Part shown: positions 14,934 through 41,758 of the stretch, one piece after another
Numbering within the stretch: position 1 is the first letter of the stretch
Layout: each line of letters opens with the position of its first letter
Origin: Protonemura montana
Lineage: Eukaryota; Arthropoda; Insecta; Plecoptera; Nemouridae
Assembly (NCBI GenBank): GCA_947568835.1
Contig: OX387609.1
Coordinates: 11,547,660 to 11,611,659 of the forward strand
Reading direction: 5' to 3'
Length of the DNA: 64,000 bases
Notes under the pieces: generated by a model
The model's database searches: none
What the model was told of the DNA's origin: nothing
What the model saw: the letters and a program-made list of their open reading frames with translations, nothing else
Position numbers and translations under genes: made by a program

Positions 14934-17900
14934 ATGAAGTTCTGTGCTGTGTTTGTCATCACCGTCGTCCTCCTGGCTGGAAAAGTAAGCATTCACTTTT
15001 ATTTGCTTCTTCAGAGGATTGAAAGCAAGTGGTTATAATGAACAGCAGTGTCAAGGGTTCAATGGGGGATCCACGGATCAGCAGCTCACATTGGATAGGA
15101 AGGTGACCTGTGAAGGTGACCGCACCTTCAGAAGGGTGTTTCAAAATAACCCAGCAAAGACCACCAATTTTCCTCCATCTGACGTGGACGATTCTGTTCT
15201 CATGTTCATTTCGTTAATGCCACATTTAGTGCAATGGGCGAGAAAAAACAAAACTTGTTTCCATTATTGTAATTGTTCGATCATGTCACGGATAAGGTAA
15301 CCAAATATCAATTTAATCGCCTCCAATGTTTGGAGGAGTACGTTTATATGCTGATTCCCTGTCTCTATTCCAGTGCCGAGCTGCCAGCGATAAGGGAGAG
15401 TCTCTTTTCAGCGAAGCCATGCGGCACATGAGCGATTGTTCCGAGAAGATAGATATCGACATGGGTAGGTAGCAGTACTGTAATATTTATTTATTTATTT
15501 ATTTATTTTTTTTTTTTTTTTCCGTAACATACATGTTATTACAGTCATACTTCGTCAAACAATATAAAATTATTAATCATCATTAAAGAATTCTTCTATG
15601 TTATAAAACTAATTGCCCATTAGGTAAACTTTCACTCTTTTTTTTTAGTTTTTGGGGCTGTCTATGTCTCTTAGACTGGTGGGCAGCGATTTAAATAGTT
15701 TTGCTCCCTTAAAATAGAGGCCCGATTGGTAGAGTGCCGTTCTATGTGACTGGCAAGTTGGCAGTTGCCTGGACCCAGTGCTGTGTACATGAGAGTCTTG
15801 ATTTATGAACAGAGAAATATTGGTTTTAACAAATGTGACAGCTTCTAAGATATACAGGCTGGCTAGTGTGAGTATATTAAGGTCTCTAAATGCCCCTCTA
15901 CAACTGATGGTTCTTGCTTTGCTGGTGATAACTCTTATTGCGTGCTTCTGTAGTTTGAAAACCTTCGTCAGCTCCGATTTTGCTGATCCGCCCCAGAAAA
16001 CAATGCCGTAGCGTAGGACTGATTCAAAGCTGGCGTGATAAAAAGCTAGAAGATTATTTTGACGCAATGTCTTCTTTAGTGATCTGAGTTGGAATACAAT
16101 GTGTCTGAGCTTTGTGAACAAACTATGGGAACCACAGTCTAATATTGAAGTCCCTGATATGAACTGTTTGCCCAATCGTTATTCCAGGCGTTTGCAGTAC
16201 CATGCTGGAGGACGACGTAGACCGCAGTGACCCCAAGTATGACAACTGCAAGGTTCGCAATCAATATTGTCTGAAATAAGTTGCTAACGTATGGTTAGAA
16301 GCTAGCAGTTCGTTTACTTAAAATCATGGAACTAATTACTTGCAGGATTATCCATATCAATGTAGGGTACAATTTTTTTTTAACAAAGCTAATCAACAAA
16401 TTCCAGTCTGTCACGTGTGATTGAAATGTATTACGTTCTCAAATTAAATACTCACCTTTGTACCTGCAGGAATCGGATTGCAACTACTTTAATTTTAATA
16501 AGAGACGTCTCGTACTTTTTCTAAAAGAGTGATATTTTGTTCTAGGCGATGGGGGTCTGCATGAGTGAACGCTTCGGTATAGTAAGTGATTAATAAATTA
16601 CCGAGTGGCATACCAAACAAGTTGATTTGTACCTAAATCAAGAGACTTAATGATAGACATATTAACGTTAATTTTGGTTCAGTATACTTTTTAACATCTT
16701 TGGATCCATATCAACTCACACAACTATTTGCACTAGAAGTACTTCTATGTTCATATACCAGTTATGATGGCCGAGTACACATTCTTTCTGTTGGTTAGTC
16801 GGCTATTTTAACTAACACAACGTTTTCCAGATGGTCGGAAACGATTACGACTACGCCAAGATGGAGGTGCACAAGCAGCGAATCGATAGCGACGAGTACA
16901 AAGCAGAGGCTGACAAAGTCCTCACCGCATGCAAGGGTAAGAAAGAAGGATATTCTTAGAGCTCTCACGAAACAGAGGAATGATAATCAATCCCGGGAGA
17001 GAAAATGCCAACTTGTCTAAACCTTCTAGAGCTATTTTGCTATAGAGCAATAGTGAAAGCAAATTCATGCAGAGAGTTTCTTCTTTCACAGGCTATACTT
17101 TAGCGTTTTATCAAAATTAGTATATCTTAAGATATCTATCGTAGAATTTCTGGAAAGTCTCATGATATGATTTCAAGAATCTTCAGCTTAGAGCGCATCT
17201 ATTTAATGATTTCTAGAAAGTGACTTTGACCCTCTCACACGTCAACGTGTTTGAGAACTGGCAATTATCCTGGTGATATCCTGATTGCCGATCTTGGGTC
17301 CTTATTTTCCAGGCACTACCGTCGGTCCGAGTCAGAACGAGTCTGTGGTCAACATAGCGACCTGCGCACTCAAGGCATCTCCCAAGGTAACTGCCATCCA
17401 GATCTGGTTCCCTCTTGTGTATTTATTTTCGCTTCGAACAATTGCAAACCTATATTTTAAATTTCATTGTATTCCACTGGGTTGTTGGAGTTCAGCCTAC
17501 CTACTCCTCTCACGTATCAGAAGGGTTGTAGAGCAGACAGACGTGGCTGGGATAAAAAAGGGAGTGACAGTGTGTGGTTATTTCGAACATAGTGCATGAA
17601 TTTGGTTACAGGATCCCTAATGGTAAAATTTGTTTTAGATGGCTTGAAATCGTTGGTTCTAATAAAAATATATACACATTCGGGTGGGTTCGGACAAAGA
17701 TGCTACCGTATTGGATGAGGGTGGACGAGTGGGCTACAATTTTGACAGTTTGGAGTTTAGATATTTGATAATTAGGAATATTGAAAACTTCTCAAAAATA
17801 GGTGCCCAGCCGGGAACTCGAACCCAGATCTAAACCTGACGTAGGTGTGGATAGCACATACACTACAGTACTCTCAGAAAGACCAAGCGCAATTAGCTCA

Positions 17901-18295
17901 ACTGGTTAGAATAACATTTTCAGTCAAAAGATTTGTAGAGAATATAGTTTTCCGCAAACATGTTTTCCCGATTTCCACTCTCCTGGTCTCCGATTTGAAG
18001 GCCGCACCGACCTTTAAGAACCTTCAATCACGTCTCTGTGTTCCTTTAAGCTTTAGATTAGCAATCAAGATCGAGGTCAAATAAAATCAGGCAGGATCTC
18101 AAGGTCACTTAACTGGCTTTCATATGAAATAAACAATATTTTCACTGTGACTGGAATTCCTGAAATAATTACCCCGAGTAGAACAAGTGACCAACGATGA
18201 ACGCGTGGGACACAATAATACTTGTTGTGTTTTTGTTTCTTAAGTTCAAGGAAATCGTCACGAACATCGCGAAATCCTTCAGCAGTTCGGATTAA
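14934..18295 (+). CDS. OBP-like secreted protein, array copy 1
   Basis: Seven coding exons: 14934-14984, 15374-15464, 16188-16252, 16546-16581, 16831-16936, 17313-17386 and 18245-18295, giving 157 residues. Exon 1 encodes a 17-residue signal peptide (MKFCAVFVITVVLLAGK). The mature chain resembles insect PBP/GOBP proteins, soluble carriers of small hydrophobic ligands: a first helix ending MSDC, the AMGVCMSERFGIM segment, and TACKG as the C4 region. It has seven mature cysteines. C5 of the C5-x8-C6 pair is replaced by Asn (NESVVNIATC), and C2-C3 spacing is five residues. Intron 2 carries an antisense retroelement fragment and intron 6 a tRNA-like fragment. Closest to copy 5 in exons and introns. 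The ligand is unknown. Confidence 0.88.
15490..16175 (-). mobile_element. 5'-truncated non-LTR (jockey/CR1-type) retrotransposon
   Basis: An antisense open frame at 15645-16175 encodes 176 residues typical of the C-terminal part of a non-LTR reverse-transcriptase ORF: YGIVFWGG, LQKHAIRVI, and a tail with LFKSLPTSLRDI. On the element strand it is followed by about 100 bp and an A-rich tail, seen on + as T-runs and TTTA repeats at 15490-15525. The catalytic RT core is absent, so the copy is dead-on-arrival. It sits in intron 2 of OBP-like copy 1 and presumably does not disturb splicing. Confidence 0.8.
17800..17925. repeat. tRNA-derived SINE fragments in intron 6 of copy 1
   Basis: GGGAACTCGAACCCAG near 17812 is a reverse-complement B-box, and AATTAGCTCAACTGGTTAGA near 17890 is a forward A-box. 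The same arrangement occurs in intron 6 of copy 5 (41350-41520), so it predates the separation of those two genes. Confidence 0.55.
18050..18244 (+). other. Conserved end of intron 6
   Basis: About 190 bp up to the last splice acceptor is conserved in copies 1-4 (also near 24630-24822, 31075-31268 and 36310-36505), with ATCAAGATCGAGGTCAAAT, TGGCTTTCATATGAA and CAAGTGACCAACGATGAAC. Copy 5 lacks it. It may be recent duplication, a splicing element or a small intronic RNA. Confidence 0.5.
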
Positions 18296-18379
18296 CTCCT
18301 GAACTTCTTAAGTTGCTGAAGATTTTCCTGAACGTTCCTTGAAACACGGAATGTCGTGTTTTGAGATGAAATATCTGTG

Positions 18380-18385
18380 ATTAAA
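18380..18385 (+). terminator. polyA signal ATTAAA of copy 1
   Basis: ATTAAA 85 bp after the stop codon, in a 3' region conserved among copies 1-4 (TGAAACACGGAATGTCGTGT and following). Confidence 0.55.
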
Positions 18386-18659
18386 AAGTGTGCATTAGAT
18401 TGACGTTGTTTGTTTTGTTGAGTTCCTGATCGAGTTCACGAATCATGTGCAAGGAAAGTAATTTTTTGTCGAAGTCCACAAGAAAGAGCATTTTGTTCAT
18501 TTTGTTCAAGATCTGCACAGACTTTACAGAAAGGAATTGGAAAGAAAGGAACCATTCTTTTCCCTGGGCCTCAACTTGATCATCAATTGATAGAATTTAC
18601 ACATAGAAAGAATAGATTAACTGATCTTAATAAACCAGTACCTATAGCGGTTGCCATGG

Positions 18660-19110
18660 ATTGATTGATTGATTTGTGGTGTTTAACGACGCACTGTTTT
18701 AACATCTGGCCCTGGCTGAACTGGACTGGTATAATGGCGTCGGTGACTGATAAGTTGATGATGAGAATGATGATAAACCTTATCTTAGCTAGAAGGGAGG
18801 AAGATAAATCCGGTGCCGGCAAGTAGCCTATTCCTGTCGAAGAACACCAAGGGGACCACCGGCTTAACGTCTCTTCCGAAGGACGGTACAAATCGAACAG
18901 CAGGATTCCTCCAAAAATCCATGCTGTCGAGAGATTGATAAGCAAGGCGAATGAAGTTGCTGTACTAACCTTCATCCCTCCAACCTCTCTCCCGAACAGA
19001 ACTGGTCATGTGTATGATGGTAACCCATCCAATACCTGACTCAGCGCAGTGTTGCTTAACTTCGATGATCTCATAAGAACCGGTGTTTCTAACACGCCAA
19101 ACCGTTTGGT
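18660..19110 (-). mobile_element. Full-length 5S rRNA-derived SINE
   Basis: A 451-bp reverse-oriented element flanked by an 11-bp target duplication, GGTTGCCATGG (18649-18659) and GGTTGTCATGG (19111-19121). On the element strand the head reads like 5S rRNA: TTTCTAACACGCC reversed gives the AACACCGGTTCT region, then AAGTTAAGCAACACTGCGCT and a GTATTGGATGGGT match to the 5S C-box. The body carries a conserved TACCGTCCTTCGGAAG block. The 3' tail is AATCAATCAATCAA. This is SINE3-type architecture, transcribed by RNA polymerase III and mobilised by LINE enzymes. Confidence 0.88.
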
Positions 19111-19121
19111 GGTTGTCATGG

Positions 19122-20699: not shown

Positions 20700-21074
20700 G
20701 TAATTATGCATTGTTGCGACTTGCAGTTTTTTCACGAGACTGAAAAGCGACACGCTCCATACAATGTCCACTGCATCAGTCATATAAAGTCTATTCTAGG
20801 TAACCTCGAAGCAGCTTCCCACCAATCAAACAGATCTGTTTCCAAACTTATTAAACCGGGGGATCTCCCATCCAATCAATCACTCGCAATCAATTCAAAG
20901 GCAATCACAACATTTCCACTTCCTCTCTTACACAGATCAATCGTTGGCAACATTTCCCTGTTTTCAGCGCCTGCTCCCGGTATAAAAGCTCTGGGTTCCC
21001 CCTTGCTGTCAATCATACTCCTGTAAGGAACGAACCTGCTGACAGAAACCATCGACAGAAATCCACCGACCAAC
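20700..21074 (+). promoter_or_regulatory. Conserved promoter block of OBP-like copy 2
   Basis: Near-identical to the block before copy 3 over about 370 bp. TATAAAA at 20981-20987, 94 bp before the ATG. The 106-codon open frame in it is accidental. Confidence 0.75.
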
Positions 21075-24000
21075 ATGAAGTTCTGTGCTGTGTTAGTCTT
21101 CACCATCGTCCTCCTGGCTGGCAAAGTAAGCATTCACTTTTATTTGCTTCTTTGGATGATTGAACCAAGTGGTAATAATTAGCAGCAGTGTCAAGGGTTC
21201 AATGGGGGTTCCATGAATCAGCAACTCACATTGGACAGGAAGATTCTAAATAAAGGCAAACACACCTTCAGAGAGTGTTTTGAAATAATCAAGAAAATCC
21301 CACCAAATTTTCTCAATCTTTCTTAGATGATTCTGTCCTAATTTCATTTTCGGTAACCAAACGTATCAATATCATCGCCTCCCACGCATGGAGGAGTACG
21401 TTTCTGTGCTGATTAACTGTTCTTTTCTAGTGCCAAGCTGGAAACGATTCCGACGAGTCTCTTTTCAAAGAAGCCAGGCGGTACATGGGCGAGTGTGCCG
21501 AGAAGATAAAGATCGTTGAGGGTAGGTAATGGCAGGGGTGGTTCGTCGATAAGGGCAGCCAGGGTAGGCCACTGGTGGGTGAGAGAGAGAGATAGGAGAG
21601 AATTTTTAATTTTTTCTTGAAATATATTCTTTATGAGATCAAATTACATCACTTTATCGCGCCACTTTCCATCGTTGAGTGGGCACTGAAATGTTTTCTA
21701 CTTTTCTTCGACCGCCCGTTATCTTTGCTCCAGGACCAAAATATCTTACCAGCCTCGACTGATCGGTATCTTCGGTCTAGCGTGGGCAATGGGCAATGGA
21801 GTCAAAGTCAAAATAGATCCCCAAAAAAAATTCTATTCATTAGGACCCCAACAACGCTTTGTCCCTTGAATAAGTCACTGAAATATTCGCTTCTTTCTTG
21901 GACTGATTCGCGCATCTTATGCATCTTATGGAGATCACATTGCAACATGCATTTGTCATTAGCATAGCTTTAGCATTTCATTAGCAGAGCCGTTATTATT
22001 TGCAGGCATTGATTTACAAGATGTAAATCTTTCTTTTTACAACACCAAACGTTTGCAAAGATACATACCCATATTTTGACAACGTATTGGGTGGTCAATA
22101 GAAAGTCTCTTTTGTCTTTTGCAATAGAAGTTCCCACTTTATACCGTCCAAGAAATTATCATGGGGTACAGCCTTTTTTCCAGACGTTTTTCGAACTGTT
22201 TTTCCAAACATTTTCCAGGCGTTTGCAATGACATGATGGACGAAAATGCAGACCGTGGTGACCCCAAGTACGACAACTGTAAGGTAAGTAACCACTCTTG
22301 TCTAAAACAATTTGATAAAGTCTCGTTAGAAGCTAAGGGTCAATTTAACTTGATTCATGTTACTATATTCCTTGCTCCATCATCTATTTCCATGCAGGAA
22401 AAACTTTTTATGCAGAGCTTATCATCAAATTAATGTCTATAAAGTATGATTTTTTTAATTTTGTAAGCTCTCTGTTTGAATAATCACCTTCTTACCCAGG
22501 TAGGAAATGGGTTGCAAGACAACTTAACCATTTCAGTTGTAATAACAGTGTTCGTCTTTACTTGTTCCAGGCTATGGGGGTCTGCGTATGCGAACGCTTC
22601 GGCATCGTAAGTCATTTATTAATTACCGAGTGTCATTCGGCAAATATACATTTGTCATACCAATCAAGACATACTGAATTTAATTTTAAAACTTTTCTGT
22701 CCTCTAACCCACACAACTATTCGCCAGATAGGTTCGTTCATATACCAGTTAGGTAGGTAGGTTAGGTAGGCAGTTAGGTTAGGTAGGTTCGTTCATATAC
22801 CAGTTATAATGACCGTTGAGTATAGGTTATAGGTAGAGTTTTAACGTCAATGTTACAGTCTCTACGTGAAAAATGACTACCTTACCGACAAAAATGCAGA
22901 GTACCGGAACATCACTTTAATTGGAGCCACTGTCGTATGAATTTTAATTTCGATATTCCTCGCAGGTTAACTCGCTTTTGAGACTTTTCATGCTCAAAAA
23001 ATCTCCATCAATGTTTACCTCAACGATTTATATACACGTAACGATATTAAAAAGCGAGTAACCTAGTATAAATATCGAAATTAAATTCATACGACAGTAG
23101 CTCCACTTAACGTGACGTTCCGGTACTCCGCATTTTTGTCGGTAAGGTAGTCATTTTTCACGCAGAGACTGTAACATTGACGTTGTTTCTCTACCTATAC
23201 CGTACACTCAACGAAATGACCGATCACACATTCATTCTGTGGTTAGTCAGCTTTTTTAACTAACACAACATTTTCCAGATGGTCGGCAACGACTATGACT
23301 TTGCAAAGCTGGAGGTGCTCAAGAAGCGATTCAACAAGCAAGAGTACAAGGCGGCGGCTGAAAAGGCCCTCAAACCATGTGGAGGTAAGCTAGCATTTGC
23401 CCTTCAAAGATGAGGGCACATATGGAAACGGCCAGTTGTTCTGGTGATCTATTGATTGCCGACCTTGAGTTCTGACCTTGGATCCTTATTTTCCAGGCGT
23501 TTCCGTCGGTCCGACTCAGAACGAGTCCGTGGTCAATATTGCATCCTGCACATTCAAGGCATCTCCCAAGGTAATTTAAGTTAAGTTTAGATACACCCTA
23601 GTGCAGGATTAGAACAATTCTATGTCTATATTTTAAATTGCATTGCATTGCTCTCACGAAAATGATATCGAGAATAAGTTAGCTTTGATCTGAGCAACCG
23701 AGTGGTTTGGCGTGTTGAAGACAACGGTTCTCGTGAGATCCACTAAATTAAGCAACTCTACTCTGAGTCAGGTATTAGATGGGTGACCATCATACACATG
23801 ACCAGTTCTGTTCGGGAGAGAGGTTGGAGGGATAAAAGTTAAGCAACACTGCGCTGAGTAAGATATTGGATGGGTGACCATCATACACATGACCAGTTCT
23901 GTTCGGGAGAGAGGTTGGAGGGATGAAAGTTAGTACAACAACTTGACTCGCCTTGCTTATCAACCTCTTGACAGCATGGATTTGTGGAGGAATCCTGTGG

Positions 24001-24873
24001 TTTATGTTGTACCGTCCTTCGGAAGGGACGTTAAGCCTGTGATCCCCCGATGCTCTTCGACAGGAGTAGGCTATGTGCCGGCACCGGGCTTCTTCTCCTC
24101 CCTTCTATGCTAGTTTAGGTTCATCATCATCCTCTTCATCATCCACTCATTCACCGACGCCGTTAGACCAGTGCAGCAGAGCCAGTTGTCAAAACAGTGC
24201 GTCGTTAAACATCAAAAATAAATCCTGAGCTGAGCTAAATTTGAACCGTACAAAACAGATCAAGTCCAGGGTAGGTATCATATAACTTTTATCTCGGAAG
24301 CTTCCAGGGTTAATGAATGTAATTTTACGAGATAACGTCGTGATTTCAAACGAAAAATTGACATCAAACCCTTGCCTGGTTCTTGATGGCGTTTTTTTAA
24401 GAGTTCAGGTACCTACTCTTTTAATGTATCAGAAGGTCGTAACTGGGTTCGAAGTGGGAGTGGTAATGTGTGGTTTTTTTGGATTTCTATTCCATTTCTT
24501 GTAACCTTGTCAATGTTTTATTAGATCCACTAATTATGAAATCTTGTCTATGAATTTGGCTAAAGTAGCCCTTATGTTAAAAACGGTGTAAAATGGATTG
24601 AAAACCAGATAGTTATAGTTCCTATCAACCTTAGATTAGCAATCAAGATCGAGGTTAAATAAAATCAGGCAGGATCTCAAGATCACTTAACTGGCTTTCA
24701 TATGAAATAAAAAATATTTTTACGGTGACTGGAATTCCTGAAATAATTACCCCGAGTAAAACAAGTGACCAACGATGAACAAGTGGGGCACACTAATACT
24801 TGTTGTGTTTTTGTTTTTTAAGTTCAAGGAAATCGTCACGAACATGGCGAAATCCTTCAGCAGCTCTAACTAA
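21075..24873 (+). CDS. OBP-like secreted protein, array copy 2
   Basis: Seven coding exons: 21075-21125, 21431-21521, 22219-22283, 22571-22606, 23279-23384, 23497-23570 and 24823-24873, giving 157 residues. Signal peptide MKFCAVLVFTIVLLAGK. Mature chain CQAGNDSDESLFKEARRY... with eight cysteines: the extra one comes from exon 4 (GVCVCERFGI). As in the other array members C5 is missing (NESVVNIASC) and C2-C3 are five residues apart. It is almost identical to copy 3 apart from the copy 3 acidic insert. Intron 4 hosts a 400-bp fold-back element and intron 6 a 5S-SINE, both absent from copy 3. A polyA signal ATTAAA is at 24957-24962. Confidence 0.88.
22815..23214. mobile_element. 400-bp fold-back MITE in intron 4 of copy 2
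   Basis: Two arms of about 190 bp are reverse complements (left ACGTCAATGTTACAGTCTCT, right AGACTGTAACATTGACGT), leaving a short centre. The 7-bp direct repeat AATGACC flanks it (22808-22814 and 23215-23221), and intron 4 of copies 3 and 4 shows the uninterrupted site. The arm sequence CTACCTTACCGACAAAAAT is shared with the MITE family near 50.9 and 52.2 kb. A 54-bp direct duplication containing TTCGTTCATATACCAGTT lies just upstream. Confidence 0.85.
23695..24223 (+). mobile_element. 5S-SINE with duplicated head in intron 6 of copy 2
   Basis: Forward-oriented element: 5S-like head (GGTTCTCGTGAGATC, TTAAGCAAC, GTATTAGATGGGTGACC), a second head part 91 bp later (TTAAG at 23748 and 23839), body, and end TGCGTCGTTAAACATCAAAAA. 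CTGAGC repeats flank it. Copies 1, 3 and 4 lack it, so it inserted after the duplications or was lost elsewhere. Confidence 0.85.
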
Positions 24874-25239: not shown

Positions 25240-26324
25240 CTTGATTGATAGATTTGTGGTGTTTAACGACGCACTGTTTTAACATCTGGCCCTGCGGAAC
25301 TGGTATAATGGCGTTGGTGAATGAGAGGTTGATGATGAGGATGATGATGAACCTTATCTCACATAGAAGGGAGGAGGATCAATCAGGTGCCGGCACGTTG
25401 CCTATTCCTGTGGAAGAGCACCAAGGGACCACCGGCTTAACGTCCCTTCCAAAGGACGGTACAACTCGAACAGCAGGATTCCTCCACAAATCCATGCTGT
25501 CGAGAGGTTGATAAGCAAGGCGAGTGAAGTTGCTGTACTAACTTTCATCACTCCAACCTCTCTCCCGAACAGAACTGGTCATGTGTATGATGGTCACCCA
25601 TCCACTATCCGATCCAGTGCAGTGTTGCTTAACTTTCATCCCTCCAACCTCTCTCCCAAACAGAACTGGTCATGTGTATGATGGTCACCCAACCAATACC
25701 TGACCCAGCGCAGTGTTGCTTAACTTTCATCCCTCCTACCTCTCTCCCGAACAGAACTGGTCATGTGTATGATGGTCACCTATCCAATACCTGACCCAGC
25801 GCAGTGTTGCTTAACTTTCATCATTCCAATCTCTCTCCCGAACATAACTGGTCATGTGTATGATGGTCACCCATCCAATACCTGACTCAGCGCAGTGTTG
25901 CTTAACTTTCATCCTTTCAATCTCTCTCCCGAACATAACTGGTCATGTGTATGATGGTCACCCATCCAATACCTGACTCAGCGCAGTGTTGCTTAACTTA
26001 CATCCTTTCAATCTCTCTCCCGAACAGAACTGGTCATGTGTATGATGGTCACCCATCCAATACCTGACTCAGCGCAGTGTTGCTTAACTTTCATCCTTTC
26101 AATCTCTCTCCCGAACAGAACTGGTCATGTGTATGATGGTCACCCATCCAATACGTCTTTATGCATATTTTTATGGATTGTTGACGATGTATCACTCTGT
26201 ATGATGTATACTACTGATTCCAAAAAAAAAAAAATAATAATAATAATACCTGATCCAGCGCAGTGTTGCTTAACTTCGATAATCTCATGAGAACCGGTGT
26301 TTCCGACATGCCAAAACGTGTGGT
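25240..26324 (-). mobile_element. 5S-SINE with seven-fold 91-bp head expansion
   Basis: Reverse-oriented element bounded by the perfect 11-bp duplication GGTTGCCATGG (25229-25239 and 26325-26335). It is the counterpart of 18660-19110 but much longer, because a 91-bp head/body-junction segment is repeated: TCATGTGTATG starts at 25579, 25670, 25761, 25852, 25943, 26034 and 26125, always 91 bp apart. The last unit is split by about 95 bp of unrelated DNA ending in an A-run and AAT repeats (about 26155-26248). Confidence 0.9.
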
Positions 26325-28019: not shown

Positions 28020-28390
28020 AATTATGCATTGTTGCGACTTGCAGTTTTTTCACGAGACTGAAAAGCGACACGCTCCATACAATGTCCACTGCATCAGTCA
28101 TATAAAGTCTATTCTAGGTAACCTCGAAGCAGCTTCCCACCAATCAAACAGATCTGTTTCCAAACTTATCAAACCGGGGGATCTCCCATCCAATCAATCA
28201 CTCGCAATCAATTCAAAGGCAATCACAACATTTCCACTTCCTCTCTTACACAGATCAATCGTTGGCAACATTTCCCTGTTTTCAGCGCCTGCTCCCGGTA
28301 TAAAAGCTCTGCTCCCGCTTGCTGTCAATCATACTCCTGTAAGGAACGAACCTGCTGACAGAAACCATCGACAGAAATCCATCGACCAAC
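28020..28390 (+). promoter_or_regulatory. Conserved promoter block of OBP-like copy 3
   Basis: Nearly identical to the copy 2 block. TATAAAA at 28299-28305, 92 bp before the ATG. Confidence 0.75.
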
Positions 28391-31319
28391 ATGAAGTTCT
28401 GTGCTGTGTTTGTATTCACCATCGTCCTCTTGGCTGGCAAAGTAAGCATTCACTTTTATTTGATTCTTTGGATGATTCAAACCAAGTGGTAATAATTTGC
28501 AGCAGTGTCAAGGGTTCAATGGGGGTTCCATAAATCAGCAACTCGCATTGGACAGGAAGATTCTAAACATAAGCAAACACACCTTCAGAGAGCGTTTCGA
28601 AATTATCAAGAAAATCGCACCAAATTTTCTCAATCTTTTTTGGACGATTCTGTCATAATGTCAATATCGGTAATGTAATGTACAATCTGAGAAAAAGATC
28701 GAAAATTGTGTTAATTTTGCTGTAAATCTGATCAAATTTATGGTAATCTATGGATATGGTCACCAAACATATCAATGTCCTCGCCTCCGCATGTCAACGC
28801 ATGGAGGAGTACGTTTCTGTGCTGATTCACTGTCTTCATTCCAGTGCCGAGCTGGGGACGATTCCGATGAGTCCGGGTCCGATCAGGACGAGTCTATTTT
28901 CAAAGAAGCCAGGCGGTACATGGGCGAGTGTGCCGAGAAGATAAAGATTGTCGAGGGTAGGTAATGGCAGGGGTGGTTCGTCGATAAGAGTAGCTAAGGT
29001 TGGCCACTGGTGGATGGGAAAAGGAGAAAATAATTTTTTAAATTTTGTCTTGAAATGTATTCTTTTCGTGATCAAATTACATCAATCCATCACGCCACTT
29101 TCCATCGTTGAGAGCGAGCTTATTTGAGTAGCGTGGGGCCTGAAATATTTTCTGCTTTTCTTCGACCGCCCATTATCTTTGCTCCAGGACCAAAATATCT
29201 CACCAGCCTCGACTGATCGGTATCTTCGGTCTAGCATGGGCAACAGGCAATGGACTCAAAGTCAAAAATGGATTCCCAAAAACCTAACCTAACCCAACAA
29301 CGCTTTGTCCCTTAAATAAGCCACTAAATTATTGGCTTCTTTCTTGTACTGATTCGCGCATCTTATAGTGGAGATCACATTGCAACATGACTTTGTCATT
29401 AGCTTAGCATTAGCATATCATTAGCAGAGACGTTATCACTTGCAGGCATTGATTAACAAGGTGTAAATCTTTCTTTTTGTAGCCATCCTATTTTTCTTAA
29501 CACCAAACGTTTGCAAAGATACTTACCTATATTTTGACAACGTATTGGGTAGTCAGTAAAAAGCATCTTTTGTCTTTTGCAATAGAAGTTCCCACTATAT
29601 TCCATCCGAGAAACGATCATGGGGTACAGACGATTTTCCAACAGTTTTTCCAGACGTTTTTCCAACCGTTTTTCCAAACATTTTCCAGGCGTTTGCAATG
29701 ACATGATGGACGAAAATGCAGACCGTGGTGACCCCAAGTACGACAACTGTAAGGTACGTAACCACTCTTATCAAAAACAATTTGATAAATTTTCGTTAGT
29801 AGCTAACGACCAGTTGAACTTTATTCATGTAACTATATTCCTTGCTCCATCATCCATTTCAATACAGAGAACACTTTTTCCACAGAAGCTATCAACAAAT
29901 TACAGTCTATCAAGCATGATTTTTTTAATTTTCCGAGCTCTCAATTTAAATACTTTCCATCTTACCTGCAGGAATGGGTTGCATGACAGCTTAACCATTT
30001 TAACTGTAATTACAGTGTTCGTCTTTACTTGTTCCAGGCTATGGGGGTCTGCGTATGCGAACGCTTCGGCATCGTAAGTAATTTATTAATTACCGAGTGT
30101 CATTCAGAAAATATTCATTTGTCCTCCAATCATGACCGTTTGTACCTAATTTAATTTTTACACTTTTCTGTCCTCTAACCCACACAACTATTAGCCAGAT
30201 AGGTTCGTTCATATACCAGTTATAATAGCCGATCACCCACTCTTTCAGCAGGATAGTCGGCCATTTAAACTAACACAACATTTTCCAGATGGTCGGCAAC
30301 GACTATGACTTTGCCAAGCTGGAGGTGCTCAAGAAGCGATTCAACAAGCAAGAGTACAAGACGGCGGCTGAAAAGGCCCTCAAACCATGTGGAGGTATGA
30401 TAGCATTTGCCCGTCAAAGATGATGGCGCATATATGGAAAGGGCCAGTTGTTCTGGTAATCCCTTGATTGCCGACCTTGAGTTCTGACCTTGGATCCTTA
30501 TTTTCCAGGCGTTTCCGTCGGTCCGAGTCAGAACGAGTCTGTGGTCAATATTGCGTCCTGCGCATTCAAGGCATCTCCCAAGGTAATTTTACTTAAGTTT
30601 GCATGCTTAGAACAATTCCATGTCTATAGTTTAAATTTAATTGCATTGCCCGTGCGACAATGATATTAGGAATTGGTTAGACTTGATCTAAACTGGATCT
30701 GAACCGTATAAAAGAGTTCAAGTGCAGGGTGAGATCATGGAACTTTTTTGTTAGAGATAACAACATTTGGTTAATCAATGATCTCGTGATCTCAATTGAA
30801 AAAGTGACATGATACCCTTGCCTGGTTCTTGATGGCGTTTTTTTAAGAGTTCAGGTACCTACTCTTTTAATGTATCAGAAGGTCGTATCTGGGTTCAAAG
30901 TGGGAGTGGTATTGTGTGGTTTTTTTGGATTTCTATTTTGTTTCTTGTAATCTTGTCAATGTTTTATTAGATCCACTAATTTTGAAATCTTGTCGATGAA
31001 TTTGGCTAAAGTAGCCCCTATGCTAAAAATAGTTTAAGATGGATTGAAAACCAGATAGTTATAGTTCCTGTCAACCTTAGATTAGCAATCAAGATCGAGG
31101 TTAAATAATATCAGGCAGGATCTCAAGGTCACTTAACTGGCTTTCATATGAAATAAAAAATATTTTTACTGTGACTGGAATTCCTGAAATAATTACCCCG
31201 AGTAAAACAAGTGACCAACGATGAACACGTGGTGCACACTAATACTTGATGTGTTTTTGTTTTTTAAGTTCAAGGAAATCGTCACGAACATGGCGAAATC
31301 CTTCAGCAGCTCTGATTAA
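28391..31319 (+). CDS. OBP-like secreted protein, array copy 3
   Basis: Seven coding exons: 28391-28441, 28845-28956, 29689-29753, 30038-30073, 30289-30394, 30509-30582 and 31269-31319, giving 164 residues. Signal peptide MKFCAVFVFTIVLLAGK. Exon 2 is 21 bp longer than in every other copy and adds seven acidic/Ser/Gly residues (SDESGSDQDES) near the mature N-terminus, in frame. Eight mature cysteines, C5 absent, C2-x5-C3. Most similar to copy 2, 7,316 bp upstream. The polyA signal ATTAAA is at 31403-31408. All splice sites and the frame are intact, so it should be functional. Confidence 0.88.
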
Positions 31320-31870: not shown

Positions 31871-32154
31871 ACTTGAAATAAAAAAAACCTAAATAAAAAA
31901 AAATAATTGGGCAATTTGAATGAAAATTTAAACAATTAAACAAATTTAAACACTTACAATATATGTAGACACTGTTAAAAAACGCCATCAACCAACGGCA
32001 ACTTCAAAGAATCGAAACGATAAACAGCAATAAAAACTGCATAATAAAAAATAAAAAACAATAATAATAAATAGCAAATGATAGCAAGCGTAATAAATCT
32101 ACATCAGATGCACTCAGCGACCCAAACTCAAATGTAAATAACGTTCGTTGAAAA

Positions 32155-32412
32155 CAACGGTCCACTCGAGATCGCCGTAGTTAAGCGACACTGCGCTGGG
32201 TCAGGTATTGGATGGGTGACCACTGAACGGTTTGGTGTGTTGGAAACACCGGTCCTCGTGAGATCAACAAAGTTAAGCTACACTGAGTTGGGTCAGGTAT
32301 TGGATAGGTGACCACCGAACTGTTTGGTGTGTTGGAAACACCGGTCCTCGTGAGATCACTGAAGTTAAGCAACACTGCGCTGGGTCAGGTATTGGATGGG
32401 TGACTACCAAAC
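32155..32412 (+). repeat. Three tandem 5S rRNA-like units, 92-bp period
   Basis: GTTAAGC starts at 32180, 32272 and 32364. Each unit carries GTTGGAAACACCGGTCCTCG, the 5S A-box region and GGTCAGGTATTGGATGGGTG (5S C-box-like). Here the whole unit is 5S-derived and no SINE body follows. It is too divergent and too short for a real 5S gene (about 120 nt). Confidence 0.8.
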
Positions 32413-33645
32413 GACTTTCTAGGTGACGTAACCTTGTCACCCTCGGCTGCCTGCTAGGCCTAGCTATGTGTTAGGACCCTGTCACACTATTCTGCCGAGA
32501 TCAGCCGTCTGCAGCCGAGTGTAGCTTAGTGCTGCCGAGTGCAGCCGAGGGCTTCCGTTCCTGGTTACCGATAGGGCTTCGTTGTAGGATGAGCGTAGCG
32601 ATATATTGAGATGATGAAGTGTGAAGCCGATCCATTGTTTATATCAAAGCAAAACAGACAAAATTCACATAATCGCCGAAAATATTTTGGAAAAAAAAGA
32701 AAGAAAAAACACCTGGGCTCAATAACTGCCTTTCTCATTTCTGCAAGTTTGGTGACAAAATAACACACTTTTTTGGCTGTAAAAAACCAAAAAGTTGCTA
32801 CAAAATCTGATATGTTTCGATGATTTTGAAAAGTTAAAAAAGAGAGGGACATTTATTTGAGAACATAAAAATGTGCTATGCAAATTTCAAAAAGATGAGA
32901 CTTCTTTATCCAAAACATCAGTGATTTTAAAGAAAATTGGTTCAAAACATTTTACTGAGAGTAACTAAAATACAAGATCCGATAAAGGCCTAAAATACTA
33001 AACAAATGCTTCCGATGAGTTGTAGACAAAAACACACACTTCTTCTTATCCCCTACGTCAAGGATATCTGAAGATGTCTGAAGAAACTCTGCATTTAATT
33101 GATCAACGCCCGTTATTCTTATTGTAAACATTTCAGTAGAAATTCTGGAGATTATTCAGAATCCCTGTGATGTATTAATTATTACATTTCTTTACTAGAA
33201 TGGAGATAAACCATCATTGAAGATCCAGAGACTATTGCCAAATCAATAGGTTTTCTGACAGATACTTAAAAACTATTTTTTGTTCAAATAAATTAGGTCG
33301 TATAGACAAATTCAATTAACAAGATTACTAGCAATATTGTTACAGGAAAAACCGTTTAACAACGACATCAATTCTAAATGTTTAAACTCTTTATGGTGTA
33401 ATCAAAATTCAAAGTCTCGGTATTTCTCACTTTTAACTAAAGCTTTCCACATGGCAACTCACGAAATAATATCACAATAACCAGACATACTCAGAATCAG
33501 GGGAATACCAAAACGATATCTCATTTAAAGCGTTTTGACTTTCACGGAAAATCGAAAGTGCATCGGTGGTTATTCCATCCGTAGTCCGTTCCATCCCACC
33601 TCCACTGGTAATTCTTGTAATATTAAAAATACATCAAAAATACAT
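32413..33645. other. Intergenic region between copies 3 and 4
   Basis: AT-rich DNA with a short run of imperfect GCCGAG repeats near 32490-32550. The rest has no recognisable element. Confidence 0.4.
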
Positions 33646-34022
33646 TACATGTAATTATGCATTAAAGCGACACAAGTATTTTTTAGGGAACAAAAACCCG
33701 CCAATGTTGTTGCAATTTCCACTGCATCAGCAATATAAATTCTATTCATGGCAACTTCCCAGCATCCCACCAATGAAATAGATCAGTTTCCAAACTTATC
33801 AAACCGGGAAATTTCCCATGCAATCAATTACTCGCAATCAATTCAAAGGCAATCGCAACATTTCCACTTCCTCTCTTACACAGATCAATCGTTGGCAACA
33901 TTTCCCTGTTTTCAGCGCCTGCTCCCGGTATAAAAGCTCTGAGTTCCCGGTTGCTGTCAATCATACTCCTGTAAGGAACGAACCTGCTGACAGAAACCAT
34001 CGACAGAAATCCACCGACCAAC
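33646..34022 (+). promoter_or_regulatory. Conserved promoter block of OBP-like copy 4
   Basis: Shares the block with the other copies, with small indels at its 5' end. TATAAAA at 33929-33935, 94 bp before the ATG. Confidence 0.75.
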
Positions 34023-36541
34023 ATGAAGTTCTGTGCTGTGTTAGTCTTCACCGTCGTCCTCCTGGCTGGAAAAGTAAGCATTCACTTTTATTTGCTTCTT
34101 CAGAGGATTGAAAGCAAGTGGTTATAATGAACAGCAGTGTCAAGGGTTCAATGGGGGATCCACGGATCAGCAGCTCACATTGGATAGGAAGGTTACCTTT
34201 AAAGATTAGCACCTTCCTAATCCTATAGGATAAGCACCTTCGGAAGAGTGTTTCAAAATAACTCAGCGAAAACTACCAATATTTCTCTATCTGACGTGGA
34301 CGATTCTGTTCTCATGTTTATTTCGGTAATGCCGCATTCAGTGCAATGTGGGAAAGCGAACGATACTTTTTTGACTATGGTATACATTTTTATAAAATCG
34401 AGTGTAAGGTAATTAAACACATCAGTGTCATCGCCTCCAACGCACGAAGGAGAACGTTTCTGTTCTGATTTCCTCTCTGTCTTCCAGTGCCGTGCTGGGG
34501 ACGATTCCGACGAGTCTCTTTTCAAAGAAGCCAAGCAGCACATAAGCGAATGTGGCAAAAAGATAACGATCGACGTGGGTAGGTAACGGCAAGGCCGGCT
34601 AGTTTATAAAGGCAACCAGGGCATGGACCAAATAAGTGGATAAAGCTAGAAGAGTAGGGTAGAAAGTTACAGTTATTTTTGTGCTGTCTTATAATTTTCA
34701 ATTTTGGATTGACATATATTATTCTTGTGATAAAGTGACATTCTCAATCAGAACATCTGATAAACGCGCTCAGTCGCGCCACTTTCGTTCGCGGAGGTCG
34801 AGCTTATTTGAGTCGCCAGGGCCCCTCTAATCGGCCCCACCCTTGACATACGATTAGAAAAAATTACTAAGCAATATTATCAGTTTTTCGGTGGTCAATA
34901 AAAGGTTCATTTTAAAATTAAAAAATGTCCGGTATAAATCGTCCGAACAAAGACCATTGGTAAGACTTTTTTCCAGCCGTTTTTTCAACTATTTTCCAGG
35001 CGTTTGCAATGAGATGATGGACAAGAATGCAGACCGCAGTGACGCCAAGTATGACAACTGTAAGGTACGTTACCATTTTTGTATAAATCAAGTTGCTAAC
35101 GACTGGCTAGAAACTAACAGCACGTTAAATTTCAACCATATAATGATAGTTTTTGCTATAGCGTCCACTTATATAGACACTATCCCTCTGTGCGATTTTA
35201 ATTTATTACGGTATCAATTAAAATACTCACCTTCTTACCTGCAGGAAATGGGTTGCAAGACAGTAACCATTTCAATGGTAATTACAGTGTTCGTCTTTAC
35301 TTGTTCCAGGCTATGGGGGTCTGTGTATGCGAACGCTTCGGCATCGTAAGTCATTTATTAATAACCGACTGTCATTCAGCAATTATACCATTTTTCATAC
35401 CAATCAAGCCCAATTATACATATTGAAATTTTAACGCTTTTCTTTCCTCTAGCCCATACAACTATTCGCCGGAAAGTTTAATTCATATACCAGTTCTAAT
35501 GGCCGATCACACATTCTTTCCGCAGTTTAGTCGGCCATTTAAACTAATATAATGTTTCCAGATGGTCGGCAACGACTACGACTTTGCCAAACTAAACGTG
35601 CTTAAGCAGCAATTCAAGAAACAGGAGTACAAGGACGCGGCTGAAGAAGCTCTCAAACCATGTGGAGGTATAAAAGATGCGCTTTTTTAAATTCCCCAAG
35701 AATAGCAATCATATCCCGTTGCAGAAGTCACCATATTGTCCAAACCCACAAGAGGGTTTCTCCTCTTGGAGGCTGAACTGTAATGGTTAACATAAACTCC
35801 AGAAATATCTAGATCTTAAGATATGTATCGTAGAAATCTGGTAAGTTCCAAGACTTGACTAGAAGATCTTCAGGATCCTGAAGGATCTTAAAGCGATTTC
35901 AATTTCATCATTTCCAGAGAGCAAACTGTCAGTTTTCCTATAGATATTCTTATTGCTGACCTTAGGTTTTGACTTTAAGACCTAATTTTCCAGGCGTTTC
36001 CGTCGGTCCGAGTCAGAACGAGTCCGTGGTCAATATTGCGTCCTGCGCATTCAAGGCATCTCCCAAGGTAATTGTAGCTAAGTATAGATATACGCTTGTG
36101 CATTTATTTATGTTTCGAACAATTGTAACGCATTTGTTTTGAATTGAATTTCATTGTGTTCGGTTTTTGGAGTTCAGGTACCCACTCTTCTAACGTGTCA
36201 GAAGGGTTGTTGATATTGGAGCGGAGGGTCGTGGCTGGGTTCACAGAGAGAGTGTCAGGGTTTTAAAGTGAGATTGGCTGGGTTTAAAGTGGGAGAGGCA
36301 AGGCGTGGTCAGCACATTGGATTAGCAGACAGGATCGAGGTCAAATGCAATCAGCTAGGATGCTAAGGGCACTTATCTGGCTTTCATATGAAGTAACCAA
36401 TATTTTCATGGTGCCTGGTATTGCTGAAATTTACCCGAGTAAAACAAGTGACCAACGATGAACACGTGGGGCATAATAAAACTTGTTGTGTTTTTGTTTC
36501 TTCAGTTCAAGGAAATTGTCAAGAACATGGCGAAATCCTAG
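34023..36541 (+). CDS. OBP-like secreted protein, array copy 4 (shortened C-terminus)
   Basis: Seven coding exons: 34023-34073, 34488-34578, 35000-35064, 35310-35345, 35562-35667, 35994-36067 and 36506-36541, giving 152 residues. Signal peptide MKFCAVLVFTVVLLAGK. Eight mature cysteines as in copies 2 and 3. In the last exon the Phe codon after AKS is TAG, so five residues (FSSSD in the sisters) are lost. The downstream bases still spell those codons, so the truncation is recent and probably tolerated, because the conserved core ends before it. The polyA signal AATAAA is at 36640-36645. A large fold-back element sits just downstream. Confidence 0.86.
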
Positions 36542-36680: not shown

Positions 36681-37577
36681 GTCCATTCTCGTAACACCTA
36701 TTCTTGCAACACCTACAGCTACCTGCTTACCCTTTCTGACCGTCGGTCGACCGTCGGTCGACGGGCCCCCAACCTTCCGCGACGTCTACCGACTGGATTT
36801 CCTAGCATAAATTAAATCTCAAAATATTTTTCCTTGGATCACCTACAACCCCCGAGGCGGCTGAGCGAACGCAATGTGTGAACCTGCCCCCTGTGCAAGG
36901 ATGTTTGAATATCTCGGTGCGTTAAGCGGACATGGCTCCTCCAAATCGAGAGCGTCTTTTCCACAGGTGCCTCATGCACAAACCGTCACTATTAGGATGA
37001 TAAAATCGTTATTTAACTCAAATCCCGATGGTCACTCCGCAAACTGACCTTATCCTTGTTCGAAACGGTGCCAACATTTTGTGGGTTTGGGCGCACTCTC
37101 TCAGGAGCAAGCGTCCCTGATCGTGCGGGGGAGTGTCACATTTTTCCTTTCCTTGTCCTGGTTCTGAAGTAGAAATTTTGGCTTCATAACTCTTTACTTG
37201 ATATTATAATCGTTAAATCCCCCCCCCCCCCCCCACCCCCACCTCACAGTCCTTCTTAAGCACAATTAAAAAACGTAAATCGACGTCCGGCTTCGTGCAA
37301 AATTGCGGCTCACCTTGTTGAGGCTGTAGAGGAGCCATGTCCGCTCAACGCGCCGAGAAATTCAAACATCCTGGCACAGGGGGCAGGTTCACACCTTGCG
37401 TTCCCTCAGCCGCCTCGGGTGTTGTAAGAGATACAAGAAAAATATTTTGAGATTTAAAAAAATCCAGTCGGTAGACGTCGCGAAAGGTTGGGGGCCCGTC
37501 GACCGACGGTCGACCGACGGTCAGAAAGGGTAAGCAGGTAGCTGTAGGTGTTACAAGAATAGGTGTTGAGTTGTGAG
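36681..37577. mobile_element. Long-TIR fold-back transposon, about 900 bp
   Basis: Arms of about 250 bp are reverse complements: left AACACCTATTCTTGCAACACC from 36693 and right ending GAATAGGTGTT at 37567. Inside are GACCGTCGGTCGACCGTCGG in inverted copies and AATATTTTTCTTG/CCTTGG pieces. A C-run lies near 37219-37242. TTTGTTG lies on both sides (about 36674-36680 and 37578-37584), and the 3' DNA of copies 1-3 shows the uninterrupted site (TTTTGTTGAGTTCCTGG), which proves a clean insertion. No coding capacity. Confidence 0.88.
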
Positions 37578-37705: not shown

Positions 37706-37850
37706 ATTTCAAGTAACCTGGATAGCGGTTGTCGGAGAGTTACTTCGAAGACAAGGCCGCCATCTTGAAAGTCCCTAGTTCTGAGTTTTCAAAGGGTCCT
37801 TGCTAGTTTGTGTGTTTTTATCTGTGGTTTTCGTAGTTTTTATCATTTTT
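37706..37850. repeat. Dispersed repeat copy
   Basis: Contains AACCTGGATAGCGGTTGTCG and CCATCTTGAAAGTCCCTAG. Related to 31560-31870 and, reversed, 44690-44850. Confidence 0.6.
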
Positions 37851-37924
37851 ACTATGAATACTGACATCATAGGGACACCCATTATTTTTCTAAAATTTAC
37901 AATTTTTGGATAAGAGGTTTATTT

Positions 37925-38030
37925 TAGGTTAGGCATGGTTAGGTTAGGTTAGGTATGGTTAGGTTAGGTTAGGTTATGTTAGGTTTGGTTAGGTTAGGTT
38001 AGGTTAGGTTAGGCTAGGATAGGTGTTTTG
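37925..38030. repeat. Degenerate AGGTT (TTAGG-type) array
   Basis: About 20 units of the AGGTT pentamer, interrupted by variants such as AGGTATGGTT. The pentamer matches the ancestral insect telomere repeat TTAGG, but ordinary sequence lies on both sides. Confidence 0.8.
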
Positions 38031-38262
38031 TATATCTGTATAGTACATTTGTTTGGTGTTATTAATTTTTCATCAATTGATGTGAACTTTTTAAAATAAA
38101 AAATAAAAAAAGATGTTTATAAAATATATAAAAAATAAATATATATAATAATTATTATAAATAATAAAATAAAAAAAAAAAATTGAATCTTTTTATTAAT
38201 ATAATCTTTAATTTTTAGAAGTTTCAACATAGAAGTTTTTTTTGTTAGTGATTAGCAGGGGT

Positions 38263-38329
38263 GAGGTAAGGTTAGGTTAGGTTAGGTTAGGTTAGGTTAG
38301 GTTAGGTTAGGTTAGGTTAGGTTAGGTTG
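38263..38329. repeat. Perfect AGGTT (TTAGG-type) array
   Basis: About 12 uninterrupted AGGTT units, 235 bp after the degenerate array. Between the arrays is very AT-rich DNA. Confidence 0.85.
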
Positions 38330-38870
38330 TGAGTATGCCAGTTGAGATTATCCGTGTGGAAGGTTCAATTGGTCAATAATCAATTATCAATTAAAGATTT
38401 TTAAAACTTAGCTTATAAAACAAAACAAAAATTGTAAAATGTTTGAAAAAATGTTGAATTAAAAACAAAATTGCAAATTTTAATATCTGTTATTGTTAAT
38501 TTTTTTAATACGCTTGGATATCAATAAAATATTACATTTTATTTGTATTTATTTTGTATTATTAGCCTATTTTATGCTATTTTTAATAACCGATCTAAAT
38601 ACCGTACCAAGTCTTAGTGCTAATGTGAAGTTGTCTTCGCTTAAAATAACCGCCAAATTACATCGTTACCTTCAACGGAGGATGTAGTTAGGCATGAAAA
38701 ATCTAAAAATTAAGAACATTTTTGGAGATTAGGAGATCTCAAAAAATAATTCAGTTGATCAAAGTTTTTCGAAGTTTTTCGAAGTTTTAGAGGCGTGACT
38801 AGACTAAACTAGATATAGAACAATCAATTTCCCACACAACGTTCTCAACACCTTCCTCTACGCGACTTAA

Positions 38871-39195
38871 GTGCTGTTTTCCACGGGACTGAAACTCAAC
38901 AAGCTGCATGCAATGTCTACTGCGACCTCGGCGCAGCCTAACACCAAACAACAGATCGGTTTCCAAACTTATCAAACCGGGGAATCTCCCATTCAATCAA
39001 TCACTCGCAATAAAATCAAAGACAATCGCAACATTTCCACTTCCTCTCTTACACAGATCAATCGTTAGCAACATTTCCCTGTTTTCAGCGCCTGCTCCTG
39101 GTATAAAAGCTCTGGGTTCCCACTTGCTGTCAATCATACTCCTGTAAGGAACGAACCTGCTGACAGAAACCATCGACAGAAATCCACCGACCAAC
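38871..39195 (+). promoter_or_regulatory. Conserved promoter block of OBP-like copy 5
   Basis: Shares the last ~250 bp of the array promoter; the distal part differs. TATAAAA at 39102-39108, 94 bp before the ATG. Confidence 0.72.
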
Positions 39196-41758
39196 ATGAA
39201 GTTCTGTGCTGTATTTGTCTTCACCGTCGTCCTCCTGGCTGGCAAAGTAAGCTTTCACTTTTATTTGCTTCTTCAGAGGGTTAAAATTAAGTGGTAATAA
39301 TTATCAGCAGTGTCGAAGGTTCAATGGGGATTCCACGGATCAGCAGCTCACATTGGATAGGAAGGTTCAAAAGTTATCCAGTCATTGAATTCTTAAGAGT
39401 GTTTTAAATTTTACTTTAAGAAGTTCTTGATATCATTTTGGATTGATCTTATTAGGTTGGTGTATAAATTGAATTTCTCGAAATTTTCGGCGATTTTTTT
39501 CGGTAACGTCATTTTCAGTGCAATGTGTGAGTGATAGCAAGAATTATTGAAAATTTTGTACACATGCTATCTTATCAAGGATGAAGTAGCCACATATCAA
39601 TGTTATTGCCTCCAATGTTTGGAGGAGTACGTTTATATGCTGATTCCCTCTTTCTATTCCAGTGCCGAGCTGCGAGCGATAAGAGAGAGTCTCTTTTCAG
39701 CGAAGCCATGCGGCACATGAGCGATTGTTCCGAGAAGGTAGAGATCAACATGGGTAGGTAGCAGTCTTGGAATAGGGAACCACAGTCCATAATACACTCG
39801 GTACCTTCCTAAAAGCGACGGCAATGGAGTCAAAGGACTCAAAAACCCAAAAGATTCTTTAACATAAATTTGTCTATACATTTTTTCTTTGGAGCATTTG
39901 TAAACCAAAATTCTGCTCACTATAGTTATATTTTCACACTATTAAACTTTTTTCAGGCAAAGTTTGGTAGTCAATTAAAGATTCCTTTGCAGACAGAATC
40001 TTCCTAGTATATCGTCTGAGCAAAGACCACGGGGTCCAGATATTTTTCAAACGGTTTTTTCAATCGTTATTCCAGGCGTTTGCAGTACCATGCTGGAGGA
40101 CGACGTAGACCGCAATGACGCCAAATACGACAACTGCAAGGTTCGTAACCACTCTTGTCTGAAACAAGTCGTTAACGCATGGTTAGAGGCTAACAGCACG
40201 TTTAATTAAAATAATTTCACTTATTACTTGCACCGTCCTAAATTCCACTTCAGGACACTTTTTTTACAAGTAAATTAAAAAAATTCAGTATTTAGCTTGG
40301 AATTTAAATGTTGTACGAATTGTCCAATCAAATACTTGCCTTCAATTAACTACAGGAAATGGTAACTTTTTATATTTGAACTTGAGTTTCTCACTCTTCT
40401 GTCTCGCACTGTTACAAGAGAGAAATCTTGTTCCAGGCAATGGGGGTCTGCGTAAGCGAAGGCTTCGGCACGGTAAGTTATTGTTAAATTACTGTTTTTG
40501 TAATTCATTAATCATACATTTGCAATACCAATCCCCACTTAAACCTAATTAGAGATACTTGAAAATTTAGAGTGTTTAGTCAAAATCAATTTCAATCAAT
40601 CAAAATCAAAATCAATATCAAATCAACGTTTATATACCAATAAAAATGGCCGATCACGCATTCTTTTGCAGCATAGTCGCCCATTTTTACTGACCATTTT
40701 TAATAAACAACGTTTTCCAGATGGTCGGCAACGCGTACGACTTTGCCAAGATGGAGGAGCACAAGAAGCGAATCACCAGCGACGAGTACAAAGCAGAGGC
40801 TGACAAAGTCCTCACCGAATGCAAGGGTAAGAAAGACGGATGTTCTTAGGGTCTCCACGAAACAAGGGAAAGATAATCAATCCCATCTAAGAAGATACTC
40901 TTTGTCTAAAGCCTCTTGAGCTATTTTTGCCACAGAGTTAGTGAAAGCAAAGTATGCTTGGAGATGGAAGCGAATTTTACCATCAGTATAAAAACTGACA
41001 GTTGTCCTGGTGATGTCCCGTTTACCGACTTTGTCCCTTTTTTCCAGACACTCCCGTGGGCAAAGATCAGAACGAGTCTTTGATCAACATGGCGACCTGC
41101 GCACTGACGGCATCTCCCAAGGTAAACGAAGTCAAGATGCCAGTCACATGCAATTGTGTAATTGGTTGTGATTTTAAAATTGCAAGCTTATATATTGGAT
41201 TGCATTCTCCGCTAACGTATAAGAGGGGTCGTGATTTAGACAAATAAAGGTGGGTTCGAACGGAGATGCAATCGAGTTTTATGAGGGTGGACGTAAGGGT
41301 TAGAAAATTGAGAGTTGGCAGTTGAGATATTTTATTACTAGGAATACCAAAAACTCCTCACAAATTGGTGCCCAGCCTGGAACTCGAACCCAGACCTCCA
41401 CCTGACGTGGGTGTAGCTTTCCCACGCACTAAAATCGTCCCAGAATTAGCTTAATTGGTTAGAGCTGGTGGAGATCGCAGTTCGAGTCCCTATTTGGACA
41501 CCAATTTTTGAGAGGTTATCAGTGCTGCTAATATTAAATACTCTGTCCATTACAATTATTAGCAATTTAATTAAATTTCCCACGCACTTATGTGACTACA
41601 GTCTCAAGATTTGTTAAGATCAAAGTTGCGAGTTTTCTCGATTTAAACATTGCTGGTCTCCGATTTGAAGGCGGTACCGGCCTTTAATTGTGTTTTTGTT
41701 TCTTAAGTTCAAGGAAATCGTCAAGACAATGGCGCAATCCTTCAGCAGCTCTGACTAA
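39196..41758 (+). CDS. OBP-like secreted protein, array copy 5
   Basis: Seven coding exons: 39196-39246, 39663-39753, 40076-40140, 40437-40472, 40721-40826, 41048-41121 and 41708-41758, giving 157 residues. Signal peptide MKFCAVFVFTVVLLAGK. Exon 2 (CRAASDKRESLFSEAMRH) and exon 5 (KRITSDEYKAEADKVL) closely match copy 1, and intron 6 shares with copy 1 a block with tRNA-like pieces, so copies 1 and 5 are sisters flanking the 2-4 group. Seven mature cysteines; C5 is replaced (NESLINMATC). Exon 4 is the most divergent (AMGVCVSEGFGT): the usual Arg is Gly and the Ile is Thr. No clean AATAAA near the end. Confidence 0.87.
41350..41560. repeat. tRNA-derived SINE pair, head to head
   Basis: GGAACTCGAACCCAG near 41370 is a reversed B-box. 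AATTAGCTTAATTGGTTAGA (41445) and CAGTTCGAGTCCC (41477) are forward A- and B-boxes at tRNA-like spacing. A relative lies at 48363-48480. Too divergent to fold into a real tRNA. Confidence 0.6.

Follow-up and report, generated by a model that had tools for sequence, protein, structure and literature searches.

A window of 64,000 nucleotides from Protonemura montana (Plecoptera; contig OX387609.1, positions 11,547,660 to 11,611,659) contains five tandem forward-strand genes between its positions 14934 and 41758. Judged from their sequence, these very probably encode secreted odorant-binding proteins (OBPs) of the Minus-C type, a known class usually marked by the loss of C2 and C5 from the six conserved cysteines C1 to C6 (PMC12495806, PMC3610139). 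Each gene has an intact reading frame in seven exons, with GT-AG introns of phases 0, 1, 0, 0, 1, 0 in all five, and the proteins span 152–164 residues, numbered below as in copy 1. The limits given for the array in a preliminary description of this DNA coincide exactly with the ATG that opens copy 1 and the stop codon that ends copy 5. When copy 4 was searched against the whole genome (258,480,905 bases; match counts are lower bounds throughout), at least 26 matches were obtained, 25 of them within the array; the other, on contig C3 (L031, E 1.85), is at chance level.

The family assignment was examined by profile search, gene structure and modelling. Four of the five proteins scored above the 22-bit cut-off of PF01395 (PBP/GOBP) and copy 5 scored below it (Table 1), which bears out the placement of the array in the OBP family. 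Hallmarks of OBP genes were present in a predicted signal peptide, a small protein and a first intron of phase 0 in every copy; a phase-0 intron after the signal exon is described for OBP genes (PMC6175461). The mature protein was modelled with low confidence, and fold searches with this model returned solved OBPs as the first matches. The weak profile scores, the failure of copy 5 to reach the Pfam cut-off, sub-threshold matches to Fer4_15 and Salp15 and a phmmer search in which copy 4 found no solved structure at E 1 would suit some other helical secreted family, but with four copies over the cut-off, an intron framework common to the adjoining Classic OBPs and OBPs leading the fold searches we consider this extremely improbable. 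The proteins are predicted to be carriers of small hydrophobic ligands, which we think likely.

Copy 1 has cysteines at residues 4, 18, 39, 50, 68, 74, 115 and 134; a further one, aligned with residue 76, is present in copies 2–4. Cleavage sites were scored with a von Heijne weight matrix. The best site falls after residue 20, within C[RQ]A^[AG], in all five proteins, which puts Cys4 inside the signal peptide and Cys18, which is encoded at the very start of exon 2, at –3. A runner-up site after residue 15 would retain Cys18 and came close only in copy 2 (5.65 versus 6.89). Cys18, which had been counted as an extra cysteine at the mature N-terminus, is therefore probably lost with the signal peptide, and the mature proteins probably contain six cysteines in copies 1 and 5 and seven in copies 2–4, instead of the seven and eight first reported. 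The second extra cysteine, placed after the exon 2/3 junction, is Cys50 and was found in all five copies.

C1 (Cys39), C3 (Cys74), C4 (Cys115) and C6 (Cys134) are kept throughout the array. The C5 column, eight residues ahead of C6, is occupied by Asn125 in every copy, and no other cysteine fills that position. The preliminary description had given the surrounding string as NESVVNIA in all copies; the asparagine is indeed constant, but the string itself is confined to copies 1–4, copy 5 reading NESLINMA. A degenerate form of the pattern gave six matches against 0.26 expected, namely the five copies and one unrelated match on the reverse strand.

The position of C2 was read from gene structure. 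In nine of nine OBP exons elsewhere in the genome that were read across C2 (L001 and L050–L057, on contigs C1, C4, C5 and C14), a CAG that appears to be the splice acceptor abuts the TGY codon of C2, the C-x3-C motif starting at the first codon past it; by eye, similarity between the nine loci also starts at the C2 codon. In the five array genes the acceptor ends directly ahead of a GCN codon, that of Ala70, and the distance from acceptor to C3 is four codons in all nine Classic exons and all five array copies. Because acceptor position and C3 distance match those of the Classic exons, the codon of C2 has become that of Ala70, with Cys68 lying in the preceding exon. A candidate for that preceding exon was found in five of the nine loci; the query demanded a final Lys, so the Lys common to these candidates is no independent evidence.

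Profile alignments gave conflicting answers on this point. Two mixed alignments set C2 of solved OBPs against Ala70 (one of them used an OBP6 two residues short), but an array-only profile aligned C2 of AgamOBP4 to Cys68 through a two-residue gap, which counts against our assignment. Five residues do separate Cys68 from Cys74 in all copies, as had been noted for C2 and C3, and both the spacing and the latter alignment would be explained if Cys68 were the true C2, shifted by a two-residue insertion, in which case only C5 would be lost and the bonds would be re-wired around C2. Such an insertion would require exon material to cross the intron and the acceptor-to-C3 distance to be restored, whereas that distance is equal in Classic and array genes and the Classic C2 codon directly follows the acceptor. 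We therefore regard this explanation as very unlikely and take the gene structure to settle C2 as Ala70, from which it follows, as first stated, that the classical C2–C5 disulfide is unable to form in any of the five proteins. Scanning the six introns of each of the five copies revealed no alternative exon restoring C-x3-C or C-x8-C; the pattern used combined the cysteine spacing with a splice acceptor and a donor of the form GTRAG or GTRA, and other forms would escape it.

With Ala70 and Asn125 in all five copies the array lacks the complete C1–C6 set of a Classic OBP. Since C2 and C5 are lost and C1, C3, C4 and C6 are kept, it fits the usual definition of the Minus-C class, although the predicted mature counts of six or seven exceed the four or five cysteines with which Minus-C OBPs are also described (PMC12561532). 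Copies 2–4 resemble Plus-C OBPs in having more than six cysteines, and the seven-cysteine TpreOBP7 was named Plus-C by count alone (PMC8620382). Plus-C cysteines are sited after C4 and after C6, together with a proline (PMC12495806); the array has no cysteine after C6 or between C4 and C6, and its extra cysteines occur in the C1–C3 interval or shortly after C3. The array is a set of Minus-C OBPs with an added cysteine pair, a small variation on a known class, and is otherwise unremarkable as a local expansion within a family that is large and evolves quickly.

The added pair consists of Cys50 and Cys68, both fixed in the five copies. The model of the mature protein places Cys50 within helix 2 and Cys68 close to where helix 3 begins. 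We propose that a helix bundle of normal OBP type would be held by C1–C3 and C4–C6, and that Cys50 would pair with Cys68 in a local bridge forming the third disulfide. Because this bridge would leave helix 3 unlinked to helix 6, the C-terminal half would have more freedom to adjust to a ligand, a flexibility of the kind proposed for other Minus-C OBPs. The products would act as soluble carriers of small hydrophobic molecules, expressed under a shared TATA-type promoter. The six core mature cysteines are invariant (6/6) compared with 65 of 132 mature columns overall (hypergeometric P 0.013). Two observations weigh against the proposal: the invariance of Cys50 and Cys68 taken alone is not significant (P 0.24), and both fall where the model has a predicted local distance difference test score (pLDDT) below 50, which lowered our confidence in the bond. 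A Cys50–Cys68 disulfide may replace the lost C2–C5 bond, a proposition that we see as evenly balanced and for which the model gives no distances; the statement as a whole, a Minus-C OBP array including this bond, we put at a probability of about 0.5. More tentative is the notion of an OBP sub-class with three disulfides, in which the long-range C2–C5 bond between helices 3 and 6 would be swapped for a local one between helices 2 and 3; this topology was not met in the excerpts of the literature searched.

The same data have to be weighed for a plain Minus-C protein with two disulfides, in which Cys50, Cys68 and Cys76 would be incidental and free or loosely bonded. AmelOBP14 (Apis) and BhorOBPm2 (Batocera) have two disulfides, and AmelOBP14 retains the OBP fold (PMC5034290), so that the loss of C2 and C5 does not by itself demand the re-wired fold that had been claimed for the array. 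The odd Cys76 is tolerated in copies 2–4, and with about half of the mature columns invariant anyway, conservation of Cys50 and Cys68 alone is also compatible with this explanation. However, secreted proteins rarely carry free cysteines, every copy has both Cys50 and Cys68, as part of a core set whose invariance is significant, and the neighbouring helices 2 and 3 of the low-confidence model would suit a bond, and we judge the two-disulfide explanation to be somewhat unlikely. Intermolecular bonds through Cys76 or Cys68, giving covalent homo- or heterodimers, would account for the odd predicted mature count of seven in copies 2–4, and five co-located genes could supply the partners; in copies 1 and 5, however, the count is even and Cys76 is absent, and we find dimers distinctly unlikely.

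Among known systems the closest likeness is to AmelOBP14 (PDB 3rzs), BhorOBPm2, the bark-beetle Minus-C clade and BtabBOBP6 of Bemisia, in which C2 and C5 are lost and the other canonical cysteines kept (PMC5034290, PMC3610139, PMC7380034); the bark-beetle clade has also undergone expansions. AmelOBP14 and BhorOBPm2 have four cysteines and differ in this from the array with its fixed Cys50 and Cys68. The AmelOBP14 variant Gln44Cys/His97Cys (PDB 3s0g), found among the fold matches (row 32), likewise combines the Minus-C pattern with two additional cysteines, but these were introduced in the laboratory and are sited elsewhere than the helix 2/helix 3 pair of the array. AmelOBP14 variants with an added third disulfide had lower odorant affinity, ascribed to constricted flexibility (PMC5034290), and we take PDB 3s0g to be such a variant. 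AgamOBP7 (PDB 3r1v), also among the fold matches, has four disulfide bridges by its title, whereas the predicted count of mature cysteines allows no more than three in the array.

Two Classic OBP genes, OBP6 and OBP7, lie downstream in the window (Table 1). The array belongs to one family with them and with the nine exons elsewhere, and shares a good part of their intron framework: its phase-0 intron before the C2 position is common to the nine exons, all on other contigs, and its phase-0 intron before Met82 is common to OBP6 and OBP7. The intron ahead of C2 is absent from OBP6 and OBP7, and by eye the frame of the nine exons continues through the place of the Met82 intron. OBP6 and OBP7 keep C2 and C5 and the nine exons keep C2 in the exon read, unlike the array. 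OBP6 had been seen as an intermediate between Classic OBPs and the array; with C-x3-C and C-x8-C intact, a Classic PF01395 score and a gene lacking the pre-C2 intron, it does not have that character. Its extra Cys25 sits at –1 of the best predicted cleavage site (4.87, other sites 3.83 and 3.79) and would also be removed with the signal peptide, less surely than Cys18 of the array given the small margin. The genome search with PF01395 gave at least 11 exon matches elsewhere, a lower bound since the search missed all seven OBP genes that lie in the window. L058 covers only the C5–C6 part and was excluded, and L059 was dropped as a chance-level match (E 2.7) with a C-x3-C but no acceptor ahead of the first cysteine. 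When the seven proteins of the window were combined into a profile, which favours the sequences it was built from, a search of the 40 kb upstream and 80 kb downstream of the window found no further OBP gene, with no match better than E 4.

Table 1. OBP genes, landmark codons and promoter regions of the window (positions of the window; PF01395 scores in bits).
Feature	Position (strand)	Exons or parts	PF01395	Remarks
Copy 1, 157 residues	14934..18295 (+)	14934-14984, 15374-15464, 16188-16252, 16546-16581, 16831-16936, 17313-17386, 18245-18295	23.7	predicted mature Cys 39, 50, 68, 74, 115, 134
Copy 1 Cys68 and Lys69 codons	16247..16252 (+)			final two codons of exon 3, abutting the phase-0 intron
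Copy 1 Ala70 codon	16546..16548 (+)			opens exon 4; C2 column
Copy 1 Asn125 codon	at 17336			C5 column
Copy 2, 157 residues	21075..24873 (+)	21075-21125, 21431-21521, 22219-22283, 22571-22606, 23279-23384, 23497-23570, 24823-24873	25.9	extra Cys76
Copy 3, 164 residues	28391..31319 (+)	28391-28441, 28845-28956, 29689-29753, 30038-30073, 30289-30394, 30509-30582, 31269-31319	26.7	exon 2 adds 7 residues near the mature N-terminus; extra Cys is Cys83 in own numbering, the position of residue 76
Copy 4, 152 residues	34023..36541 (+)	34023-34073, 34488-34578, 35000-35064, 35310-35345, 35562-35667, 35994-36067, 36506-36541	25.5	extra Cys76; stop in last exon 5 codons before that of the other four copies
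Copy 5, 157 residues	39196..41758 (+)	39196-39246, 39663-39753, 40076-40140, 40437-40472, 40721-40826, 41048-41121, 41708-41758	20.8	E 0.00043
OBP6, Classic OBP, 6 exons	43293..46480 (+)	43293-43364, 43854-43941, 44890-44975, 45807-45921, 46277-46344, 46454-46480	60.2	phases 0, 1, 0, 1, 0
OBP7, Classic OBP, 6 exons	59943..62241 (+)	59943-60014, 60417-60537, 61040-61125, 61204-61321, 61433-61500, 62197-62241	51.8	phases 0, 1, 0, 1, 0
Copy 1 proximal promoter and 5' leader	14634..14933 (+)			TATAAAA at about 14842-14848 (by eye)
Promoter counterparts, copies 2-5		20775-21074, 28091-28390, 33723-34022, 38896-39195

Divergence between copies was compared over ungapped columns in seven of the ten copy pairs. 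The 300 bp upstream of the start codon are 83–99% identical and the signal exon 90–96%, compared with 67% to 100% in exons 2–7 (lowest in exon 5) and 46% to 92% in the introns. The ratio of non-synonymous to synonymous substitution (dN/dS) for the mature region lies between 0.21 and 0.93 across the ten pairs, and bootstrap limits for five pairs put none clearly above 1 and two clearly below it. Given the high upstream identity set against these values, the promoter is kept while the mature proteins diverge; positive selection is unproven.

Several repeats accompany the array. Sequences resembling 5S rRNA reach the Rfam gathering score at 18991-19109 (–) and 32321-32429 (+), and tandem arrays of 91–92 bp (23748-23932, 25539-26154, 32147-32413 and 49515-49793) resemble 5S in their letters by eye; it looks as if 5S-derived repeats are dispersed through the cluster. 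Between copies 4 and 5, the arthropod telomere unit TTAGG forms internal arrays (37924-38024 and 38260-38328). An inverted repeat with 108 nt arms, 98% complementary, and an additional inner pair follows copy 4 (36693-37567), and another with 136 nt arms, 89% complementary, lies within intron 4 of copy 2 (22814-23213). Outside the array, a 68 bp unit is repeated 23.5 times at 6358-7952, upstream of a PAP2_C (PF14360) exon at 11256-11684 whose gene resembles a sphingomyelin synthase. A glycine-rich open frame of 204 residues at 46884-47498 (–) had no Pfam match at E 0.01, and 57319-58638 (+) may encode a two-exon secreted protein rich in Ala-Leu-Pro repeats (by eye), its frame and splice sites being putative.

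The acceptor lying directly before C2 provides a positional ruler for cysteines in divergent OBPs where alignments disagree. Accounts of Minus-C OBPs usually say no more than that one bond is missing. If the Cys50–Cys68 bond exists, it would separate how many disulfides an OBP needs from which helices they join, and the array would offer a natural test of whether the C2–C5 bond itself or the number of disulfides sets the flexibility of the binding pocket.

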